Program-made: the position numbers and the translations under genes
The notes under the pieces: model-generated
What the model was told of the DNA's origin: nothing
Databases searched by the model: none
The model's input: only the letters and a program-made list of their open reading frames with translations
NCBI RefSeq assembly: GCF_000283515.1
Contig: NC_015976.1
Location: 2,326,501 to 2,390,500, forward strand
Reading direction: 5' to 3'
DNA: 64,000 nucleotides
Source of the DNA: Sphingobium sp. SYK-6
GTDB lineage: Bacteria > Pseudomonadota > Alphaproteobacteria > Sphingomonadales > Sphingomonadaceae
In this document: positions 22,005 to 33,662 of the stretch, piece after piece
Numbering within the stretch: the stretch's first letter is position 1
How the letters are laid out: each line of letters starts with the position of its first letter

Positions 22005-23234
22005 TCATGGCCCCGTCCTTTCGAGAGACAGGGCCGAAATTTCGAAGCGGACAGGCTTCTGGCCATCCGGCGTCGAGACGACGAGCCGCCAGAATTGCAG
22101 TCCGCAATCCGGCGGAATTGTCAGGGGGAGTGGCTCAGCGCTTGCGCCATTCGCCGGCGGCACGGCCTGTTGCCAGACCGGCGGGGCATTGCCGGGGGCG
22201 CAACGCAGCACCCACTCGACACGGGGGCTCTGCTCCAGCAGCCCGACGTCCAGACTCTGGCGCATCGCATAGGCACCCGGCGGCAGCTGGGTGATGCGAT
22301 CGACAAGCGTGACAAGACGCCCCGGCGCGACCTCCACGCCAAGCCTGCCGTCCTCGATCAGCCGGGCCTGCGCGATCTCGCTGCTGTGAAGCGAGAAAGT
22401 GAGCGGCGCAAAATCCGGGTCCGTGGTCGCCTGCGTCAGCGCGAAGCTCTCCAGGGCCCGGCGATCGAGGCGGCCACTTGCCACTGCGAGTGCCCTGGCC
22501 TGTTCATAATCCCCGGAACGGATCAGCGGGCGCAGCAGGGCCGGGAGAAGATCGCGCTGATCTCCCGCAAGGGGAATGCCGCTTTCCAGGACGAGCGCGA
22601 CGACCGCCGACTTGTCCTGCGATTGCTGAATGGCGGTGGCCAGGAAATGCCGGAACCACGGCCGCGCGGAATAACGCAGGAGCAGCCGGCGAAACGCGGG
22701 CTGATGCAGCGGCAAGGCCAGCGCCGGAAACACCTCCCTTCCCATACCGGGATTGACGGTCAGCAGGATGTCGAGATGCCCGAGCGCCGCGACATCGTCG
22801 CCCCGCGAGGTCGCGAGCGCCATCAGCGCCAGCTGCGTTTCCTGGTCGCGGCGGGATATGCGCTCGGCGAGCCGCAGCTTGCCCTCGAAGCTCGGGTCGC
22901 CCGTCGCATTGGCAGCCAGCCCGAGCTGCCGCATCGCGGCGGCGTTCAGGGCCCCGTCCCGCAAGACGGCCCGCGCGTCCCGGACGATCTTCTCGGTCGC
23001 CGCAACGTCCAGTGCGCCGGGCTCGAAGAAATAGCGGTCTGACAATTCGAGGCCGATCCGGGGATCGGACTGGAGGAAGCTCGGCGCCAAGCCGGGCGAT
23101 GTGGCCAGCCAGTAAGCGAGCGACGCGTCCCGCCATGCCTGTCCGGCGAGCAGGCAGGCGAGCACCGCCAGCAGAAGCAGGGCCGGCGTCCGCCAGCCCC
23201 TGCGCCGTTCCAGAGGCAGCCCGCGCGCCCTCAC
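22005..23234 (-). CDS. Membrane-anchored helical protein of the exopolysaccharide operon
   Basis: A 409-residue protein with one N-terminal membrane segment (about 17-33) and a periplasmic part of helical repeats resembling TPR units (about 60-270), then a beta-rich C-terminal region. Its GTG start overlaps the BY-kinase stop (GTGA), so the two are coupled. No family is named; a scaffold role in polymer assembly is only an inference from position. Confidence 0.7.
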   Translation of the reverse strand: MRARGLPLERRRGWRTPALLLLAVLACLLAGQAWRDASLAYWLATSPGLAPSFLQSDPRIGLELSDRYFFEPGALDVAATEKIVRDARAVLRDGALNAAAMRQLGLAANATGDPSFEGKLRLAERISRRDQETQLALMALATSRGDDVAALGHLDILLTVNPGMGREVFPALALPLHQPAFRRLLLRYSARPWFRHFLATAIQQSQDKSAVVALVLESGIPLAGDQRDLLPALLRPLIRSGDYEQARALAVASGRLDRRALESFALTQATTDPDFAPLTFSLHSSEIAQARLIEDGRLGVEVAPGRLVTLVDRITQLPPGAYAMRQSLDVGLLEQSPRVEWVLRCAPGNAPPVWQQAVPPANGASAEPLPLTIPPDCGLQFWRLVVSTPDGQKPVRFEISALSLERTGP

Positions 23235-25456
23235 CCGTCCTCGCCTGAAGCCGGGGCGTTTTTCCGGCCATATCCGTATCGATAGCCATAAGCATAGCCA
23301 TAGGCGCCGCTGTGGGCCGCGACCTTGGTGACCGTTGCGCCGAATATCTGGTTGCCGGTCTCACGCAGCCTGCGCAGCGCCGCCCGAATGGCGCGTCTCG
23401 GCGTCTTCTCCGCCTCCACGACGAACACCACGCCTTCGGCCGTCCGCCCGATCAGGAGCGCATCCGCAAGGCCCAGGACGGGCGGCGCATCGATGACGAC
23501 ATGGTCGAAATCCTTGAGGAAGACCTGCAGCAGCTCGGCCAGCCGCGTGCTGCTGAGCAGCTCCGGCGGGCTCGGCGGCAGCGGACCGCTCGTCAGCAGA
23601 TAAAGGCCTTTTCTGCCCGTCTCCTGAATCATCGCGGCAATGTCGTCCTCGCCCGCCAGCAGGTTCGAGAGACCGACCTCGTTGGGCATGTTCAGGATCC
23701 TGTGCAGGGATGGCATGCGCAGGTCCGCGTCCACCAGCAGCACATTCTTGCCGGTGCGGCCGATGAGATCGGCCAGCGCGAAGGCTGTCGTCGACTTGCC
23801 TTCCCCCGACCGCGCGCTGCTGAGCGCCACCGTCCTTGGAAGGCCATGGGTCGTGGCGAAGGCAAGCGTGGAGCGGACACTGAAGTAGGACTCGAACAGC
23901 TGCGAGCGCGGATCGCTGAGTTCGGCGACGGGATCTTCCTTCACCAGCGGCACGCTTCCCAGCAGCGGCACCGAAAGAAGCTCGGAGACATCCTCTGGCC
24001 GGCGGATGCCCTCGTCGATCTGCTCCAGTCCGATCACGGCAGCGACCGACAGGCTGAGCCCGGCCAGCAGTGCCAGCGCCAGATTGAAAGTCATGTTGGG
24101 CGCCGATGGCCGGGTGGGAACGCTGGCCTCATCGACCACGGAGATGTTGTTCACGCCGACCGCGCCGGCGACCCCGACCTCCTTGTAGCGCTGGAGCAGC
24201 GCGTCGTAGAGCTGACGGTTGGTGTCGGCATCCCGCTGATAGATGTTGTACTGGATCGCGTCGTGCCGCTGCGCATCGAGCACGGCCTTGAGAGCGCCGA
24301 CCTTCTGCTCGAGGTCCCGCTCGCGACGCACGGCTTCCTGATAATCCTGCTGCCGGCTTTTCGCGACGCGCCCGGTTTCCTGGGAGATCGCGGCATCGAG
24401 CGCGATGATCTGCTCCTGCACGGCCCTCGCCGCCGGATATTCCGGCTCGAACGTGACCATGAGCTGGCTATGCTGCGCCGCCAGTTCCGCGCGCCGGGCC
24501 CGCATCTGGGTGATGGCGGGATTTGTCAGCACCTCGACGCTGTTTGCGGCGCTTCCGCCCGCGATGCGGCTCTGCGCGACGATCCGGTCGGCCTGGGCGC
24601 GTTGCAGCGCTTCGTTCAGGGCTTCGAGATTGGCCGATGCAAGCGTGCGCGAGGTCGGGGTTCTGGTGCCCCCATCCGTGCCCTCGTCCAGCGGAATGAT
24701 GTTCTTGCCGGAGGCGTAGGCGACCGCATCCCGCTCGGACTGCTCCAGCCTGGCCTTCAGCATCTCCAGACGGCCTTCGAGGAAATGGCGCGCATCCGCG
24801 GTCGAGGAGAACTGGCGGTCCATCGTGGAACCGATGAATTCCTCGACCCAGGTGTTCGCGAGCAGGGCGGACATCTCGGGGGATCGACTGGTGTATATGA
24901 TGTCCACGAGCCGGGAGTTCCTGACCGGCTGCACGTCGACATGCTGGAGCAGGATCGACATCACCAGCCGCTCGCGCGCCGAGGAGCCGCCACTTTCCCG
25001 GCCGGTGCGATCGACTTTCTGGAGCTGCTCGGCGCTGACGCCATGCGCGCGGAAGAAATCGTCCGACTTGGCAAGGTTCAGCCGGCGGGCCACTCTCTTC
25101 GCGAGGGATTCCGCCTTCAGAAGCGAATATTGCGTCGCGTAGAATTCAAGATCGCGCCCGGCCTGCTCGGATTCCACGCCCTCGACATTGGTGACGTTCT
25201 TCTGCTCGCGGCTGATCTCGATGCCGGTCCGCGCGGTGTAGAGTGGCGCCATGAGCAGCGTGACGGCAAGGCCGGCCAGCAGGCAGGCGCCAAAGATCGC
25301 GGCGATCACCAGGCGCCACCGCACGGCGGTATGCCAGTAATTGAGGAGGACGGGAACGAAGGAGGAGCGATCCTCGTCCGCTTCTGGTCCGGGGCCGGCT
25401 GCCAGCGAAAGCACCGGTTGAGAAGGACCTCGGATTGGCTTCTGGAATGAAGTCAT
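23231..25456 (-). CDS. Polysaccharide co-polymerase with BY-kinase domain (Wzz/Wzc, GumC/ExoP type)
   Basis: A 741-residue inner-membrane protein. A Wzz domain lies between two membrane segments (about 50 and 460), with long coiled-coil periplasmic arms. The cytoplasmic tyrosine kinase has Walker A SARSGEGKSTT, Walker A' LLVDADLR and Walker B HVVIDAPP. The tail has seven Tyr in about 15 residues (GAYGYAYGYRYGYG), the autophosphorylated cluster. It sets chain length and export with Wza. Confidence 0.93.
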   Translation of the reverse strand: MTSFQKPIRGPSQPVLSLAAGPGPEADEDRSSFVPVLLNYWHTAVRWRLVIAAIFGACLLAGLAVTLLMAPLYTARTGIEISREQKNVTNVEGVESEQAGRDLEFYATQYSLLKAESLAKRVARRLNLAKSDDFFRAHGVSAEQLQKVDRTGRESGGSSARERLVMSILLQHVDVQPVRNSRLVDIIYTSRSPEMSALLANTWVEEFIGSTMDRQFSSTADARHFLEGRLEMLKARLEQSERDAVAYASGKNIIPLDEGTDGGTRTPTSRTLASANLEALNEALQRAQADRIVAQSRIAGGSAANSVEVLTNPAITQMRARRAELAAQHSQLMVTFEPEYPAARAVQEQIIALDAAISQETGRVAKSRQQDYQEAVRRERDLEQKVGALKAVLDAQRHDAIQYNIYQRDADTNRQLYDALLQRYKEVGVAGAVGVNNISVVDEASVPTRPSAPNMTFNLALALLAGLSLSVAAVIGLEQIDEGIRRPEDVSELLSVPLLGSVPLVKEDPVAELSDPRSQLFESYFSVRSTLAFATTHGLPRTVALSSARSGEGKSTTAFALADLIGRTGKNVLLVDADLRMPSLHRILNMPNEVGLSNLLAGEDDIAAMIQETGRKGLYLLTSGPLPPSPPELLSSTRLAELLQVFLKDFDHVVIDAPPVLGLADALLIGRTAEGVVFVVEAEKTPRRAIRAALRRLRETGNQIFGATVTKVAAHSGAYGYAYGYRYGYGRKNAPASGEDG

Positions 25457-25477
25457 GGCGGTTCTGCTATCCTGCGC

Positions 25478-26236
25478 TTATCGGGTCAAACGATCGATGG
25501 CGATCACCGTGGGGGTGATCAAAGCCGGCGAGATCGCCAACAGGTCCTTGAAAAGTCTGCGAGCCCTGGATTCCCCCACCATGACGATGTCGCTCGCATA
25601 GACCTGGGGGTCCGGATAGGCGCCGTGCCGGATCGCATCGAGATTGTAGAGCGCCGCATAACGCTGGCCACGGACCGTCCGGAAAACGACCACATCGTCC
25701 AGCCGGGAGAACTCCCCGGTCCCTTCCGCCTTCGCGATCGCGCCCATGAGGGTGAGACGGCCGACCACCGGATAGAGCCCCGGCTTGTTGACTTCCCCTT
25801 CCACGGTGATGACCTGGCTCAGGGTTTCCTTGAGATTGACGGTCACCTGGGGTTCGCGGACATGAGCGCGCCTCAGCCGGGTGGCCAGTTCGCCTTCCAC
25901 TTCCGCGGGAGTCAGTCCGCTGACGTCCACGATCCCCGCCAGCGGGAAGGATATCCGTCCGCTCGCATCCACCTGCACCGCTCTGTTGGAGAGTTCCTGG
26001 ATGCCGAAGACATCGATGGTGAGGCTGTCGAACGCTCCCACATAATAAGGTACCTGGTTCGAGCTGACGTCCTCCCGGTCCGGCCTGGGCAGTTCGGTGC
26101 CGGGGAGTACGGCGAGTTGCGGATCGCCGCCCAGGTGCCGCGGCCCGCTGGAGCAGGCGGCAAGCGCCGCCGCGCAGAGTGCTGCAAGTCCGACCCGGCC
26201 GGCAGTGCCGCCATATCTGTCGATTGCCAATGTCAT
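25478..26236 (-). CDS. Polysaccharide export outer-membrane lipoprotein (Wza type)
   Basis: This 252-residue lipoprotein has a lipobox CAAALAACSSG. A Poly_export domain (PYYVGAFDSLTIDVFG) and an SLBB domain (VITVEGEVNKPGLYPVVG) follow. The ATG at 26236 has GGGAG at a good distance and gives a short signal; an ATG at 26254 is in frame. It would form the outer-membrane exit channel with the Wzz/BY-kinase encoded next. Confidence 0.92.
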   Translation of the reverse strand: MTLAIDRYGGTAGRVGLAALCAAALAACSSGPRHLGGDPQLAVLPGTELPRPDREDVSSNQVPYYVGAFDSLTIDVFGIQELSNRAVQVDASGRISFPLAGIVDVSGLTPAEVEGELATRLRRAHVREPQVTVNLKETLSQVITVEGEVNKPGLYPVVGRLTLMGAIAKAEGTGEFSRLDDVVVFRTVRGQRYAALYNLDAIRHGAYPDPQVYASDIVMVGESRARRLFKDLLAISPALITPTVIAIDRLTR

Positions 26237-26257
26237 TCCGGGCATCTCCCACATGAT

Positions 26258-27799
26258 TTAATGATCCCACCTTTGAATGCGTGCCTCCCCGCCCGGCCAT
26301 GGCCGTGAAGCTCTTCCGGGGAGGGAATTCGTGCCAGAGAAGAGCCAGACAAATGCCACGCTCAACAGGCAGCTCATCGACGGCGTTCTCAACGGATAGT
26401 CCGTGATCGACGCGACGAAGAGAATGAGGATGATGACGAGCGCCAGCCCTTCCAAAGAAGATCGCCGGCCCATGGCTTTGCTGGACACGCTGTTCTTCAG
26501 GCGCAGGACCAGCGCTGTGGCGGCAATGGCCAGGAGCAGCATGGCCGGCACACCGCCCGTCAGGACCAGTTCGAGCCAGTCGTTGTGGGCGTGGTTCATG
26601 TAGGACGAGGTGAGCAGCCGATAGGGTTCGTGGACCTGATAGACGGCCTCGAAGCTCCCGAGCCCCGTTCCCCACGGCAGATAGAGCCCCAGCATGTCCA
26701 TCATGACCGGCAGGATGCGCACGCGCATCTCGTCGGCGCTTTCCCAGCGCATCAGCCGGTCGAAGGCGAGCGCCCTGTCGAGCAGGATTGCGATGCCGAC
26801 GAGCCCGGCAAGGCAGACCGGCATGAGCCACGACCTCAGAGCAGGGCCATTCGCCCACCCTTGCCGGGGCCGCGATACCGGCTCCCGGGAGCGGTCGCGC
26901 ACGAGGAAGGGAACGGCCAGCAGCGCGATCAGCGCCGTGAACATGCCCGACCTCGAACCGGAAACGAGGATCAGCAGGAGGAGGAGCGTCGCACCGGCCG
27001 CGAGCGCCGCCATGACGACAGGCCGGGGCATGCGGGCTCCCCCGACCGGCGCGCGAGGTGCCTGCCCCGCCGTCCAGACGAACAGGGCGGGAATGAGGCT
27101 GGCCAGGAACACGGCCTGATGATTGCGATTGGCGAACAGCCCCACCGGCGCGCCGTTGTTGGTGATGTCATAGAAATAGAGCGCGCTGCGCGGGTCTCCC
27201 AGCATCTGCAGCATGCCGATCACGGCACTTGCCAGGCCCAGCATCAGGAGAAGCGGCAACAACGCGGCCCGCTGCTTGTCATCGATCTGGATGCCGAGCA
27301 CGAGGACCCCGAGCGGCGCAACCAGCGCCCACAGCGCATTCCAGGTCGCCGCCGGTGCCATGGTCAGCGGCAGCCAGCGATTCCCAAGGCCCGCCTCCCT
27401 GCCGATCTCGACGAGCAGTTCCCGGCCGGTCAGCAATTGCCACAATTGCGGCGGCAGCGGGACCAACTGGAGCAATGGCAGGAGAAGCACCGCAAGCCCC
27501 ATGCCGAGCGGGAACCGGTGCTCCCGCAGCACGGCCGGGCTCAGCCCCGCGATTGCATAAGCGAGCACCAGCACCGAGATCGGCCTCAGGAAGGACAGGC
27601 TGGCGATGTCGGCTCTGGCTCCGCCGCCGAACAGGAAGATGAGAGTCAGCCAGAGCGAAAGGATGATGAACGTCACTTGCTGTCTGCCGGGCGTCCCTGC
27701 CCGGCCGCCGTCCGCCCGAAGGGAGGAGCGAAGACCTTCGGGAAGGTCGCTCGCCCCCGCCGGGCGCTGAGGCACGATCCTATCTCGAGCCGAAACCAC
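26258..27799 (-). CDS. O-antigen ligase/polymerase-like membrane protein (Wzy type)
   Basis: A 513-residue protein with about 10-12 membrane segments. The large periplasmic loop has the Wzy_C region (GTGLGSFEAVYQVHEP and NHAHNDWLELVLTGG), which carries family-typical Arg and His residues. The GTG start overlaps the sugar-transferase end by 20 bp; a later GTG at 27676 is possible. It probably polymerises lipid-linked repeat units. Confidence 0.85.
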   Translation of the reverse strand: MVSARDRIVPQRPAGASDLPEGLRSSLRADGGRAGTPGRQQVTFIILSLWLTLIFLFGGGARADIASLSFLRPISVLVLAYAIAGLSPAVLREHRFPLGMGLAVLLLPLLQLVPLPPQLWQLLTGRELLVEIGREAGLGNRWLPLTMAPAATWNALWALVAPLGVLVLGIQIDDKQRAALLPLLLMLGLASAVIGMLQMLGDPRSALYFYDITNNGAPVGLFANRNHQAVFLASLIPALFVWTAGQAPRAPVGGARMPRPVVMAALAAGATLLLLLILVSGSRSGMFTALIALLAVPFLVRDRSREPVSRPRQGWANGPALRSWLMPVCLAGLVGIAILLDRALAFDRLMRWESADEMRVRILPVMMDMLGLYLPWGTGLGSFEAVYQVHEPYRLLTSSYMNHAHNDWLELVLTGGVPAMLLLAIAATALVLRLKNSVSSKAMGRRSSLEGLALVIILILFVASITDYPLRTPSMSCLLSVAFVWLFSGTNSLPGRASRPWPGGEARIQRWDH

Positions 27800-29093
27800 T
27801 GAAGATCGTCCCGATGGTCTTGATGGAAATCAGAAAGTCGAGCCAGAAGGAGAAATACTTGATGTAGTAGAAGTCATATTCCAGCTTCTCGCGCGCGGCC
27901 TCGACGTCGCCGACATTGCCCTGATGGACAGCCGCCCAGCCCGAGATTCCCGGCCGCACGGCATGCCGATAGTCATAATAAGGAAGATGCTGGCCGTAGC
28001 GCTCGGCAAGGGACACGGCTTCCGGCCGGGGCCCGATCCAGCTCATCTCGCCCTTGAGCACATTGATGATCTGCGGCAGCTCGTCGATGCGCCATTTGCG
28101 CAGCAGCTGGCCGGTCCGGGTCAGTCGCGGGTCTTCCTGCAGCGTGAAGGCCGGCCCATCCTGCCCGCAGCGCATCGTGCGCAACTTGAAGCAGATGAAT
28201 TGCCGGCCGCGATAGCCGACACGAGGCTGGCAGAAGAGCATCGGCCCCGGGCTGTCCAGCTTGACGATCAATCCCGCGATGAGAATGACCGGGATGACGA
28301 GGGGAAGCGCGGCGACGGCGACGACGAAATCCAGCAGTCGCTTGACGCGCAGATATGTGAGCGAAGGCAGCAACGCGCCGAAATTATTGTCGGCGTGGCT
28401 GGTGAAGCGGACACGTCCGGTCAGGCACTCCTCGAAATGGCTGCGGTGATAGACGGGGATGCCCGCTAGGACGAGCTGGGCGATCAGCTGCGCGCTCTCG
28501 ACGTCCCGCGCCTCATGCGGATCCACCACCATGGCCGTCACGGGGCGGGAAATGACCGGCTGTTCGACCGGCTGCCATTCGAAATTCGCTCTGTGACTGT
28601 CGAAAGGGTGAACCGCCGATCCGAGCAGCGCGATCGTGGGACGCACCAGCCGGTGCCGCAGCGCAAGCACGCCGCCATACCAGGTGAGGCTGATGGCGCA
28701 GGACATCCAGAAGAAATAGGTGTCCATCGGGATCCGCGCGGCCATCAGCGCAAGGAAGATCAGGCCGAACGTCGCAAGGAACACCGGCACCAGCAGATGC
28801 CGTGCCGCCACGAGGGGCAGCACACCGAGCTGTCGAACCGAGAGATGAGATGCGACAATAGCCGTCGAAGCGGCAATCACCGATACGTCCGCATAGCCGG
28901 ATGCCGTCGGCCCGACCGCCCCCATCGGTGCCAGCTGCGCCCGCAGAAACGCCGGCAGCGCGACCCCCGCGAGGATCGCCACGCCCAGCACGAACCTGTT
29001 CGAGCAAAGCACCCGCCCGGCCATGCCCGTCCAGCGATCGTAGTCCAATGGCCTGGCCGTTGTCGGCATCGGAACTATTGGCTTGAATTGCAT
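27780..29093 (-). CDS. Polyprenyl-phosphate sugar-1-phosphate transferase (WcaJ/GumD type)
   Basis: A 437-residue protein with four N-terminal membrane segments, a nucleotide-binding-like middle, and a C-terminal bacterial sugar-transferase domain. That domain has a reentrant helix KRLLDFVVAVAALPLVIPVI, then FKLRTMR, KWRIDELPQIINVLKGEMS and GPRPE. It starts repeat-unit synthesis on undecaprenyl phosphate. Which sugar is moved cannot be told. Confidence 0.9.
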   Translation of the reverse strand: MQFKPIVPMPTTARPLDYDRWTGMAGRVLCSNRFVLGVAILAGVALPAFLRAQLAPMGAVGPTASGYADVSVIAASTAIVASHLSVRQLGVLPLVAARHLLVPVFLATFGLIFLALMAARIPMDTYFFWMSCAISLTWYGGVLALRHRLVRPTIALLGSAVHPFDSHRANFEWQPVEQPVISRPVTAMVVDPHEARDVESAQLIAQLVLAGIPVYHRSHFEECLTGRVRFTSHADNNFGALLPSLTYLRVKRLLDFVVAVAALPLVIPVILIAGLIVKLDSPGPMLFCQPRVGYRGRQFICFKLRTMRCGQDGPAFTLQEDPRLTRTGQLLRKWRIDELPQIINVLKGEMSWIGPRPEAVSLAERYGQHLPYYDYRHAVRPGISGWAAVHQGNVGDVEAAREKLEYDFYYIKYFSFWLDFLISIKTIGTIFSGFGSR

Positions 29094-29172: not shown

Positions 29173-29742
29173 TTACTTTGCAGAACAGGACATGATTGAG
29201 CCCTCATTCACTTTGAGAACTCGTTTATGACCCATAATTTCTAGAAGTATCAGGACGCGACCTTTGTCATCCAGCGACTCGACTGAGGCGATCTTCTGGG
29301 CAAAGGGGCCATTGATGAGGCGGACCTGCTGGCCCGGCTCGAAGCTGTCGGCCATCTTCGTGACGACCCCGTCCTCGCATCTGGAGAGGATCTGCTGCAT
29401 GGCGGCTTCAGGCACCGGCCAGGGGCGAGCGCTGTCGATGCCGGCCAGCCGCTTGACCCCACGCGTGCCGTAGATCGATCGCCACGGATGCCGGTCCCGA
29501 TCGAAGCTGACGAAAACATAGCCCGGAAACAGGGGAGCCAGGACGGTCTCGACCCGTCGGCCATGCCGCTTCACTTTTCGGAAACGGGGGCAGAAGCTCT
29601 TGAACTGCTGGCGCTTCAGATTCTGGATCGCGACATGTTCCTGTCGCGGCAGCGTCTCGGCGACATACCATTGCAGGGCATTTTGCCCGCGCGATGCCGC
29701 CATTTCGCTTTCGCCAGAGTCGGGCCTTACATCAGGTTGCAC
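29173..29742 (-). CDS. NusG-paralogue antiterminator (RfaH/LoaP type)
   Basis: A 189-residue protein with an NGN domain (WYVAETLPRQEHVAIQNLKRQ, FPGYVFVSFD) and a C-terminal KOW domain (FEPGQQVRLINGPFAQKIASVE). The GTG at 29742 is chosen because AAGGAG precedes it by 8 bases. RfaH-like proteins let RNA polymerase traverse long polysaccharide operons. As the first gene of the operon it probably promotes expression of the five genes after it. Confidence 0.87.
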   Translation of the reverse strand: MQPDVRPDSGESEMAASRGQNALQWYVAETLPRQEHVAIQNLKRQQFKSFCPRFRKVKRHGRRVETVLAPLFPGYVFVSFDRDRHPWRSIYGTRGVKRLAGIDSARPWPVPEAAMQQILSRCEDGVVTKMADSFEPGQQVRLINGPFAQKIASVESLDDKGRVLILLEIMGHKRVLKVNEGSIMSCSAK

Positions 29743-29856: not shown

Positions 29857-30078
29857 TCACTCCAGCAGAGCCGCGCAGAGCAGTCCCAGGGCGACCCAAA
29901 GGGACAGGCTCGCAGGGATCCCGATCATCAGGCCCATCAACACGGCCGGATCCCGGGCAACGATCCTGGGCGCGGGCATGACCGCGCTCAGGTCCAGCGT
30001 CGTGGACAGATAGGGGGCCGCCCCCATGTCGCGCGGCAAGGCCGCCGCGCGTGCCCGGGCGAAGAACCGCGGCATCAT
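29857..30078 (-). CDS. Small single-pass membrane protein coupled to the EAL protein
   Basis: A 73-residue protein with a basic start (MMPRFFARARAAALPR) and one C-terminal membrane helix (LMGLMIGIPASLSLWVALGLLCAALLE). Its ATG overlaps the stop of the EAL gene (ATGA), the reason for choosing this start. No family is recognised. Confidence 0.6.
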   Translation of the reverse strand: MMPRFFARARAAALPRDMGAAPYLSTTLDLSAVMPAPRIVARDPAVLMGLMIGIPASLSLWVALGLLCAALLE

Positions 30079-31385
30079 GCGCGCCCTCCGGGCTGGTAGT
30101 TCGGCGACCACGGCCGGAACCGGCCGGTTCCCCGACCAAGCTGGTGCAGCGGCACCACGACGGGCTCATCCTCGTACCGCCAGCGGCGCCACAGGGATGG
30201 AAGCCCCACATGATAGCCTTGCTGCCAGCATGCGTTCAGCGGCGTCGCATAGCGGGACTGCAGGCGCTCGGCGATTTCGCTCTGCTCCTCCGTCTCCACG
30301 CCTTCGACGATGACGATGGGCGCCATATGCGCGGCGAGGCCGAGGATATGTTCCAGCATCGCTTCCCCGTGGGCGCTGAGGGTGACCCGCCGGAGGAAGA
30401 AGGCATCGATCTTGATGATGTCCGGGCTGAGCGCCATCGCATTGCGGATGGACGAATGGCCGACGCCGAAATCATCGAGCGCGACCCGGCAACCCAGGCG
30501 GCGCAGGCGGGCAACGAATGCGTGCGCTTCACCCGCAAGAGCCGCCGTCTCGGTGATCTCGACCACCAGCCGGCCGGCGACATCGGGCGCAGCGCGCAGC
30601 CGGTCGAACATCGAGGACCACCAGCCGTCGATCCGGGCGCTCTGCGCCGAGATATTGATGCCGAGCCTGGCGCCGGGGAAATTCTCCATCTCGTCAAGGG
30701 CAAGGCCCATGACATGCCGATCGAACGCCCGGACGAGGCCCAGCCGCTCGAGGGCGGGAAAGAAATCGCCCGGTGACCGGGCTTCGCCTGTCGCGGCGGT
30801 GAGCCGCGCCAGCGCTTCGTGATAAAGCACTTCGCCCTGCGACTGCATCGAGAGGACCGGCTGCCAGCTCAGGTCCACCCGGCCGTCCGCCATCGCGGCC
30901 AGCACCTCCACGGCGACAGCCATGTCGCGGCGGTAGGCTTCCGCCCAGGCCTCGTCGTCGCATGCGGGCTCTCCCGCTGGCAGAACGGGCGAGGAGGCCA
31001 GGCTGTTGGCCTCCGGAAACACCGGACATGAAACCGCGAGATGGAAGCAGCGCCCGCCAACCTCGACAGGACTGGAAGAGAGATCAGCGATGAGCGCTTC
31101 CAGGCGCCTCGCGGCTTCATGTACGGATTTTTGCCCGAACGAGATCGCAATCAGGTCAGGGCGATGCGCACGTGGGAAGCGCATGCCCTGCCCCGACTGG
31201 CCGACGATCATGTCGATCATGGCCGCAGCGGCCCTGATCCCTGCACACCCAAACGCCGACTCAATGTGGGAGAAATTGTCGATGCGTATGGTTACCTCAA
31301 CCGCGCCATTCTCGTGGGACAGAGTGGCGAGCTGCCTTGTGCTGGAATCTGCGCCGACCAGGTCGGCATTGAGCACTGCGGTCAT
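30075..31385 (-). CDS. EAL-domain c-di-GMP phosphodiesterase
   Basis: A 436-residue protein. Residues about 1-145 are degenerate GGDEF-like and lack a clear active site. The EAL domain has YHEALARL, NISAQS, EITETAAL, DDFGVGHSS, KIDAFFLRR and EGVETEEQ, so the metal and catalytic residues appear intact. It should hydrolyse c-di-GMP in the cytoplasm. GGAGGTG precedes the ATG. Its position beside the exopolysaccharide operon suggests control of polymer output. Confidence 0.9.
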   Translation of the reverse strand: MTAVLNADLVGADSSTRQLATLSHENGAVEVTIRIDNFSHIESAFGCAGIRAAAAMIDMIVGQSGQGMRFPRAHRPDLIAISFGQKSVHEAARRLEALIADLSSSPVEVGGRCFHLAVSCPVFPEANSLASSPVLPAGEPACDDEAWAEAYRRDMAVAVEVLAAMADGRVDLSWQPVLSMQSQGEVLYHEALARLTAATGEARSPGDFFPALERLGLVRAFDRHVMGLALDEMENFPGARLGINISAQSARIDGWWSSMFDRLRAAPDVAGRLVVEITETAALAGEAHAFVARLRRLGCRVALDDFGVGHSSIRNAMALSPDIIKIDAFFLRRVTLSAHGEAMLEHILGLAAHMAPIVIVEGVETEEQSEIAERLQSRYATPLNACWQQGYHVGLPSLWRRWRYEDEPVVVPLHQLGRGTGRFRPWSPNYQPGGRA

Positions 31386-31431
31386 TGGTCACCTCCGTTG
31401 CCGGACGAACCCCTCGTTCGGGCTGAGACGG

Positions 31432-31450
31432 AATAGACAATTGTGTAACA
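31432..31450 (+). repeat. 19-bp inverted repeat, left copy
   Basis: AATAGACAATTGTGTAACA lies just downstream of the recombinase stop and 46 bp upstream of the EAL start. It is the exact reverse complement of 32289-32307. Confidence 0.9.
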
Positions 31451-31451
31451 A

Positions 31452-32336
31452 CTAGCAAGCCGGTATCGTGGTTAACTGTGTCATTAGTCTTTTAACCCAC
31501 CGCAAAGCCGAGATTTTTCTGAAGGGAAATCCGGGCGTCCCGTTTTCGGCGTCTTGCTGCAGTGCGGCATCGGGCGCGTTCCATTCCATCGATTCGTCCT
31601 CCGTTTCTTCCTCGGGCGGCATGTCTGAACCCTGCTCCTCGTGCAGCCAGATTCGGGACGCGATCTCCCGCTCTTCCGGTCCCATCGCCGCCGCATAGAT
31701 CGCGGTCGTCTTCATGTCGGCATGGCCGAGCCAGCGCTGCACCAGATGAAGCGGGACGCTCGACTGGACCGCGCGCACGCCGAAACCGTGGCGCAGCCCC
31801 TTCGGCGTGGCCCAGAGCCCGATGATATTCGCCGCTTCCATCACTTCCTTGATCCGGCGGTACGCAGTCATTCGCGACCATGGCCACAAGCGATCATCCG
31901 GAGAAAACTCAGTTTTTTCAATCCATTGAGATAGTGCCTCCAACAAATTGGCCGGGAGCGGGATCGCGCGATAGATGCCCGTGCGACGCTTCTTGAGGCT
32001 CTCCACGATCGCGAGCTTGGCTTCGAAGTCCAGGCTCTTGGGCGTGATGCTGAGCGCCTCCGAAATCCGGCAGCCGGTCGCGGCGATGAACCAGCAGAAC
32101 AAATGAACGGGTAACGGCCTTCGCTGCGCAGAGGCCAGGAAGCGATGCGTCTCCGCCCGCGTGAGGTACTTGCGATGTCCGTCCCGCCCGAATGCGGAGA
32201 GGGGCGGGTGCGTGGACCGCCTCTGCTTCTGGGCCCGCGGGGAACGGTCGTTCACCGACCTTTGCGCGGAAAAGCGCCGCCGGGGGGCTGTTACACAATT
32301 GTCTATTTTGTCACTATTTTTTACATTATTTTTCAT
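31452..32336 (-). CDS. Tyrosine recombinase without N-terminal core-binding domain (copy A)
   Basis: The catalytic domain begins near KYLTRAETHRF and spans the rest. Visible residues are Arg in ATGCRISEAL, Lys in SLKKRRTG, Arg in KGLRHGFGVR, His in LGHADMKTTAIYA and the Tyr of AIYA. The usual His two residues before the second Arg is Lys. There is no separate SAM-like DNA-binding domain. The start is uncertain: TTG 32369, ATG 32336 or GTG 32255; with the last, the inverted repeat would exactly bracket the gene. It is clearly homologous to copy B at 32862. Confidence 0.85.
   Translation of the reverse strand: MKNNVKNSDKIDNCVTAPRRRFSAQRSVNDRSPRAQKQRRSTHPPLSAFGRDGHRKYLTRAETHRFLASAQRRPLPVHLFCWFIAATGCRISEALSITPKSLDFEAKLAIVESLKKRRTGIYRAIPLPANLLEALSQWIEKTEFSPDDRLWPWSRMTAYRRIKEVMEAANIIGLWATPKGLRHGFGVRAVQSSVPLHLVQRWLGHADMKTTAIYAAAMGPEEREIASRIWLHEEQGSDMPPEEETEDESMEWNAPDAALQQDAENGTPGFPFRKISALRWVKRLMTQLTTIPAC
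32289..32307 (-). repeat. 19-bp inverted repeat, right copy
   Basis: This is the exact reverse complement of 31432-31450. It falls inside the first codons of the recombinase if ATG 32336 is used, or just upstream if GTG 32255 is used. An AT-rich region starts directly outside it. Confidence 0.9.
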
Positions 32337-32369: not shown

Positions 32370-32861
32370 GGCACCCCTGCTGTTCTTGCGGCGCTCTTGT
32401 CTTCAAGTCGCGCCGATATTGCCTAGGGACTTATTGCCTAGGCATTTCTTATATGACTCCCCTCGCCCCCCGAACGCCTCAAGTCAATTGTTGGTTAACC
32501 CGGCACGCCAGGAAGAGCGTTTCGTTCGATCATTCGAGCCTGAAAGCAACCCCGCTGACGCTACGGCTTCCTGAAAGTTCATCGAAAATTAATCGACATG
32601 ATCGCGATTACGATCCCGGAACCAAACAATTTGCAGTTCCCGCATAAGATATGACTAATATTTTATTAATATAGGATCATTTTTCGAATCCATCGGTAGA
32701 ATCTAATCCATTGCTATGGCAAACATCTCGTATGCAGTTAATATTATTTAACTCAGTTATAAGCTTACTGGTATATTTTATATTAAATTAACTAATATTT
32801 ATCGGTAGTTAATTAATGAGGAAGAATTTATCTTTGAACTGAATGGGGACGTGAGGACAAA
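32370..32861. promoter_or_regulatory. AT-rich region between divergent recombinases
   Basis: This 492-base stretch becomes strongly AT-rich after about 32580, unlike its surroundings. It holds 11-bp direct repeats TATTGCCTAGG at 32417 and 32432, and a degenerate CAATTGT-TTAAC element at 32482-32499 resembling the inverted repeat. Promoters for both recombinases are expected here. No coding frame is convincing. Confidence 0.6.
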
Positions 32862-33662
32862 ATGCCGATAGATCTTTCCAACTATGACGTGGAAGGAAAG
32901 AGGAAATATCTCACACGTGCAGAGACGAGCAAATTTATATCCGCAGCAAAAGATGAAGATGTTTCCGTATATTTCTTCTGCTGGTTCATTGCCACGACAG
33001 GTTGTCGTGTGTCGGAAGCGTTGATGATCACGAGGAGAAGCATTGATTTCGAAGCAGGGCTCGTCATCATCGAAAGTCTGAAAAAGCGTCGCACCGGAGT
33101 CTTCCGGGCTGTCCCCCTGCCTTCGGCATTCCTGCAGAAACTTTCGAAATGGTTCGAGACCAAGGCGATCGAGCCGCAAAGCCGCTTGTGGCCATGGTCC
33201 CGCATGACGGCCTATCGGCGAGTGAAGACCGTCATGGACCGGGCCGGGGTCGAGGGTCCCTGGGCCACGCCGAAAGGCCTGAGGCATGCCTTCGGCGTCC
33301 GGGCTGTCCAGTCGGGCGTTCCTCTGCACATCGTTCAGCGCTGGCTCGGCCATGCGGACATGAAGACCACGGCGATCTATGCCGGCGCCGTCGGCCCGGA
33401 GGAACGGGATCTCTGTTCCCGGGTCTGGCTGGATCAGGAAAAGCCTCGCCGCTCCTCGAGATCACCGTCCCTGCCCGCAGCAAGCCATCCTCATGAGGAT
33501 ATGGATCCCTCCGTCATGGGCCGTTCTCTTCGGCTGCATGAAACCCCTGCTCCCCTCGAGGATCACGGGAGCGCCAGACATGCATCGTCAAGATCGGGGC
33601 TCGAGGCCTGCGTCGACAAGGTCATCCACCTCGCCAGCCGGGTCTATGCCTATATGTCCTAA
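32862..33662 (+). CDS. Tyrosine recombinase without N-terminal core-binding domain (copy B)
   Basis: A 266-residue homologue of copy A, sharing KYLTRAET, ATTGCRVSEAL, ESLKKRRTG, RLWPWSRMTAYRR, ATPKGLRH and LGHADMKTTAIYA. It also has Lys in place of the box-II His. The catalytic domain starts about 15 residues from the N-terminus, and a 90-residue Ser/Pro-rich tail follows. GTGAGG precedes the ATG. It faces away from copy A. Confidence 0.87.
   Translation: MPIDLSNYDVEGKRKYLTRAETSKFISAAKDEDVSVYFFCWFIATTGCRVSEALMITRRSIDFEAGLVIIESLKKRRTGVFRAVPLPSAFLQKLSKWFETKAIEPQSRLWPWSRMTAYRRVKTVMDRAGVEGPWATPKGLRHAFGVRAVQSGVPLHIVQRWLGHADMKTTAIYAGAVGPEERDLCSRVWLDQEKPRRSSRSPSLPAASHPHEDMDPSVMGRSLRLHETPAPLEDHGSARHASSRSGLEACVDKVIHLASRVYAYMS

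Follow-up and report, generated by a model that had tools for sequence, protein, structure and literature searches.

According to PMC5903667, the Hin recombinase gene lies inside the segment that Hin inverts, and in Bacteroides one recombinase, Mpi, serves many loci. In Clostridioides difficile, DNA inversion takes place ahead of the c-di-GMP phosphodiesterase genes pdcB and pdcC, as described in PMC9286219; the inverted segment there is the upstream region, and it is inverted in part by RecV, which is encoded elsewhere (PMC5903667). Integrase and recombinase families were enriched near invertons in a gut survey (PMC11892184), and a read-based survey gave zero inversions in its 4 alphaproteobacterial samples (PMC5903667), so that such switches may be under-recorded there. 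Our literature search, which included sphingomonads and alphaproteobacteria, returned no paper on the switch presented below, which Chanin 2024 or Milman 2023 may nevertheless mention.

A recombinase gene between inverted repeats

We analyzed a 64-kb stretch of DNA from Sphingobium sp. SYK-6, here called the window. A preliminary description had reported a tyrosine recombinase gene, recombinase A, with a perfect 19-bp inverted repeat on either side, had judged a chance match of that length negligible and had counted 46 bp from the repeat to the start codon of the neighboring EAL gene. All three points were confirmed: AATAGACAATTGTGTAACA lies at 31432-31450 (+) and its exact inverted copy at 32289-32307, the 46 bp run from 31386 to 31431, and with up to 3 mismatches allowed these two copies were the only matches in the 64 kb, with none in 100 shuffles. 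In the whole genome (4.35 Mb), the 15-bp inner part of the repeat had two exact matches, both of them the window copies, no match at 1-2 mismatches, and 11 matches at 3 mismatches, of which two are the window copies on the other strand and two bracket another recombinase. The repeat is partly palindromic, and our site search scores it on both strands. It can be extended to 24 nt at 92%, and it forms the inner part of two 27-bp sites that were defined from relatives (Table 1). The segment is thus flanked by short inverted repeats, as an inverton is.

Recombinase A has 294 amino acids and reads leftwards. Its best start codon lies outside the bracketed segment, with the first base 29 bp past the right repeat, and its stop codon (31452-31454) falls one base inside the left repeat; the recombinase lacks the internal start found in many relatives. 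The invertase gene lies inside the segment, as in a Hin-type system, but the enzyme belongs to the tyrosine and not to the serine recombinases. We take R90, K115, R182, H205 and Y214, which were invariant in 12 recombinases, to be the catalytic R, K, R, H/W and Y of tyrosine recombinases, and K179 to occupy the place of the H of the HxxR motif. The protein consists of the catalytic domain without an N-terminal core-binding domain. The NCBIfam invertase models NF007370 and NF007371, presumably those of FimB and FimE, aligned with it from model residue 3-9 of about 200, and its scores (31.5 against a cut-off of 221 and 29.3 against 222 bits) place it outside these families.

Leftwards from recombinase A, and in the same reading direction, follow the EAL gene, an RfaH/UpxY-like NusG paralogue and exopolysaccharide genes. 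The EAL positions E190xLxR194, N244, E279, D304, D305, K325, E361 and Q389, which we assume to be catalytic, were invariant in 13 proteins. On the right, an AT-rich stretch separates A from recombinase B, which reads away from A. The surroundings of recombinase B held no match to the 27-bp site above 12 bits, and B was rejected as a self-bracketed cassette, as its best inverted repeat scored 14, which is within the control range. The AT-rich stretch between A and B also contains a direct repeat, TATTGCCTAGG, at 32417-32427 and 32432-32442 with a 15-bp period, a possible operator. Second recombinases on the side of the cassette away from the EAL gene were seen at three loci (L020 8877-9701, L095 10345-10944 and window 32862-33662).

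Table 1. Coordinates and supporting observations for the features of the locus, and for more distant recombinases of similar layout
Feature	Position	Strand	Remark
Left recombination site, 27 bp	31424..31450	+	10-bp arm, core TAGACAA at 31434-31440, 10-bp arm
Right recombination site, 27 bp, inverted	32289..32315	-	core 32299-32305
Invertible segment, 872 bp core edge to core edge	31434..32305	.	homologous segments reversed in relatives
Recombinase A, short catalytic-only tyrosine recombinase	31452..32336	-	PF00589; ORF in frame through right site
External start codon ATG	32334..32336	-	31 nt before core; would open 30-aa stub when inverted
Candidate outward promoter TTGCTA, 17 bp, TATTCC, facing EAL (inferred)	31430..31458	-	
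EAL-domain protein, predicted c-di-GMP phosphodiesterase	30075..31385	-	PF00563; adjacency in relatives
RfaH/UpxY-like NusG paralogue, possible downstream output	29173..29742	-	PF02357; best NCBIfam match RfaH, under its cut-off
Exopolysaccharide genes: sugar transferase, Wzy_C, Poly_export, GNVR/AAA chain-length type protein	23231..29093	-	
Recombinase B, paralogue of A	32862..33662	+	66% identical over 190 aa; possible partner in trans
Distant self-bracketed recombinases	L128 8262-8989, L129 8449-9194, L133 8710-9424, L036 1411-2125, L018 1718-2441		

Orientation of the segment in relatives

A third relative in the genome, recombinase C, lies about 1.1 Mb away, adjoins an EAL gene and is bracketed by an inverted repeat of its own, TAGCCAAAAGTGTAACA, which differs from that of A. 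This second instance of the layout prompted a comparison across relatives. In four sets of relatives the flanks matched and exactly the segment from site to site was reversed. In the first set, G035 and G073 are 98.8-100% identical at the locus. In the draft assembly of G073, one contig joins the right flank to the segment as in G035. On another, the left flank is attached to this end of the segment, giving the inverted form. Each contig stops at the core edge, and a search found no place in G073 with the segment other than these two. The sequenced G073 culture contained both forms, unless the segment is duplicated.

Between G020 and G255, the flanks are colinear on both sides at 93-94%, and segment 4358-5289 matches 10627-9696 in reverse at 78%. 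Between G069 and G036, the flanks are reversed relative to the segment, with the EAL gene only partly present in G036. Between G369 and four sister species, the segment is reversed between exact site boundaries with flanks colinear at 84-89%; the colinearity reaches the sites on both sides in three of the four comparisons, and in L101 on the EAL side only. By these comparisons, the homologous segment is shown to occur in both orientations within the family, and the sites on either side of it behave in the manner of recombination sites. A further contig, that of G034 (L062 13459-14369), ends inside the segment near the expected second site and was perhaps broken by mixed orientations.

When orientation was mapped onto a tree of the recombinases, five changes were required and the two orientations did not cluster, with values as low in 194 of 500 shuffles; the tree is poorly resolved (5 of its 29 inner branches are starred), and among labels without an adjacent EAL gene that of G483 was set by arm type and those of G385 and G491 were assigned by us.

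The inverted orientation was not found in the window's own species, where both available genomes (2/2) carry the same one. This would also be seen if the switch were real in the family and the window locked by a loss of function in recombinase A or its sites. Such a loss would fit two further observations: the EAL gene beside A in the second genome (G198, L092 7694-9002) matches in two frames and looks frameshifted, and A is without the internal start common in relatives. We consider a locked window improbable, since A is an open frame with conserved catalytic residues, its two sites match over 19 bp, and A and the sites are retained in the second genome with 99% protein identity.

Cassettes, their sites and their neighbors

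Searches with recombinase A returned 14 loci on genome contigs and matches in 30 of 198 whole genomes of relatives at E 1e-20, in 13 of 94 from the genus and 13 of 397 from the family at 1e-55, in 11 of 396 from the order at 1e-55 and in 6 of 385 from the class at 1e-50; these tallies overlap and include the window's own genome. An inverted repeat scoring at least 16 surrounded the recombinase at 17 of 44 loci, some of which are one place fetched twice; of 695 control intervals taken from these loci, one scored as high. Not every relative of the recombinase has such repeats: 27 of the 44 loci scored below 16, and four of nine in a later set scored 10 or less. Because 164 of the 695 controls reached a score of 12, a score of 12-13 alone means little, and the four Sphingosinicella cassettes (score 12.5) are supported instead by their core, their arms and the G369 comparison. 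In all, we collected 28 cassettes with paired sites from sphingomonads, namely 25 compiled first, G674 and G682, and G369. This number excludes G073, which is nearly identical to G035 at the locus, G034, where the contig breaks off within the segment, and the other genome of the window's species, in which A and C recur. Some short tyrosine recombinases that are more distant and have no EAL neighbor also lie between inverted repeats, with scores of 15-23 (Table 1), and the self-bracketed layout may be wider than the EAL-linked clade.

After removal of five near-duplicates, 20 non-redundant cassettes gave the site consensus TGtnACannn-TAGnCAA-nnnTGTAnCA. We read each site as an asymmetric 7-bp core between 10-bp arms that are inverted relative to each other. 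When the two sites of one cassette were compared, mismatches were found at 0 of 140 core positions, 18 of 160 positions in the next 8 bases and 81 of 200 in the outer 10 bases. The search pattern behind most cassettes fixed the TA and AA of the core and required 12 of 15 matches, and the clean evidence is therefore confined to the three free core positions; these showed 0 of 60 mismatches within cassettes, with a fraction of 0.36-0.54 differing between cassettes. A core that is the same within a cassette and varies between cassettes is expected if strands are exchanged over it, unlike the operator of a regulator.

This pattern bears directly on the idea that nothing inverts and that an autorepressor, possibly the recombinase, uses the repeats as operators to control the recombinase and EAL promoters. 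One copy does stand just ahead of the EAL gene and the other at the recombinase start, and the partial palindrome would suit an operator. We give this idea almost no weight, however, given the reversed segments in relatives, a core that varies freely among cassettes yet is identical at both ends of each, and sites that always bracket the gene in inverted orientation. The preliminary description had itself named two results that would speak against a self-inverting switch, a single orientation in all relatives, and a repeat that is a conserved transcription-factor site with no relation to the gene. Neither was borne out: its suggested search of relatives did find the inverted form, with reversed segments and both forms in one assembly, and the repeat differs among cassettes while each 7-bp core is shared by both ends. 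The switch it proposed is supported accordingly.

An EAL gene reading away from the segment is adjacent in 24 of the 28 cassettes, the exceptions being G036, in which it is incomplete, and G385, G483 and G491, in which it is non-adjacent. Among the 24, the recombinase reads towards the EAL gene in 7 and away from it in 17. Surface or secretion genes, recognized by Pfam or annotation, were present in 10 of the 17 EAL-side neighborhoods examined, and the remaining 7 held other families or gave no match. These genes were sugar transferase or exopolysaccharide genes (window and RL4), CsgG of curli (G020 and G017), ShlB/FhaC of two-partner secretion (cassette C and G409), a BapA prefix domain (G035/G073), OEP with an ABC transporter (G087) and SCPU pili (G297 and S. 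parapaucimobilis), whereas the genes on the non-EAL side are unrelated. The BapA-type protein of G073 (L059 3542-6200) has a very long Asp-Ala repeat whose length is unlike that of the G035 copy.

The cassettes stand beside many different operons, some of them on plasmids, and one genome holds three copies of the gene. A mobile element would explain this distribution, with the repeats as terminal inverted repeats and the recombinase as a transposase that hops and does not flip DNA in place. That explanation is very unlikely to apply, since most cassettes adjoin the same EAL family, relatives with matching flanks have the segment reversed at the same place, and the inner end sequences past the sites are not in common.

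The proposed switch and known systems

The ends of the segment differ in a feature that may bear on EAL output. On the side of the recombinase 3' end, all 21 EAL cassettes have a TTG exactly 17 bp from the TA at the core edge, and so do the three compiled later; on the 5' side, none of the 21 has it. This spacing is the geometry of a sigma-70 promoter, and the outer arm completes the pair, facing the EAL gene, in the towards-EAL orientation only; the long EAL frame opens 19-54 nt beyond the core. The segment seems to carry an outward promoter for the EAL gene. The -10 sequences are poor, and judged by consensus the candidate promoter is weak. In 12 of 21 cassettes no other pair at the junction scored higher, the towards-EAL junction outscored the other in 17 of 21, and a generic promoter scan of the window does not list the pair, so that the promoter is a putative one. 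Folding of 25 recombinase 3' ends revealed no shared terminator.

At the other end, 13 of 23 EAL cassettes have an outer start codon, 25-37 nt before the core, that shares the reading frame of the recombinase when the segment has the towards-EAL orientation; in the reverse orientation these 13 starts open stubs of 16-41 aa. In the other 10 the outer start is absent or out of frame, and many cassettes have an internal recombinase start. These findings modify the proposal of the preliminary description that inversion would swap the AT-rich flank for the sequence ahead of the EAL gene. Inversion would indeed sever the recombinase from the AT-rich flank, but the flank also supplies the start codon, and the outward promoter apparently lies inside the segment.

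Taken together, phase variation by a short tyrosine recombinase that inverts the DNA holding its own gene is a highly probable account of the locus. In the orientation seen in the window, the ON state, the outer flank would give the recombinase its start codon and presumably its promoter too, and the outward promoter at the recombinase 3' end would drive the EAL gene, and perhaps also the exopolysaccharide genes that follow. In the inverted, OFF state, the recombinase would be without its external start and the EAL gene without a -35 element, so that both would be lowered. Return from OFF to ON could rely on leaky or internally started recombinase, or on a second enzyme, for instance recombinase B. 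As its output, the switch would make individual cells differ in c-di-GMP and in surface structures. We infer the effect of orientation on EAL expression from the sequence.

A more specific proposal, for and against which we see about equal odds, is a portable switch of one gene, that of the recombinase, which itself forms the invertible segment, with a cassette-specific core, a split at the external start, a promoter swung to and from a phosphodiesterase, self-limitation and a place before surface-structure genes. Under this proposal, several switches in one cell could flip independently because the core differs between cassettes, and the toggle would be self-limiting because a flip joins or splits the recombinase and its external start. 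If true, sphingomonads carry a family of self-contained toggles, defined by recombinase, site code and predicted ON and OFF states, through which predicted c-di-GMP breakdown is linked to surface structures. With their differing cores, the cassettes would then offer natural candidates for orthogonal minimal invertases, each made of one gene and two 27-bp sites, and the start codon outside the segment would be a possible self-limiting feedback.

The nearest described systems each share part of this arrangement. The window switch precedes an RfaH/UpxY-like antiterminator and polysaccharide genes, as in the phase-variable polysaccharide loci of Bacteroides (Mpi, UpxY), but recombinase and core are particular to each cassette and the EAL gene comes first. 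With pdcB and pdcC of Clostridioides difficile, it shares inversion ahead of a c-di-GMP phosphodiesterase gene, the phosphodiesterase being predicted here; there the upstream region is inverted, whereas here the segment is the recombinase gene itself. Like the Hin/hix flagellar switch of Salmonella, it places the recombinase gene within its own inverted segment, but Hin is a serine recombinase, and here a tyrosine recombinase has its start codon outside the segment and an EAL neighbor. With FimB and FimE, recombinase A shares a catalytic domain only, of about 200 residues, but it scores far under the cut-offs of those families, and the FimB and FimE genes lie outside the segment inverted. By the criteria applied, the locus resembles Hin in its layout and FimB in the type of enzyme, and belongs to neither group.
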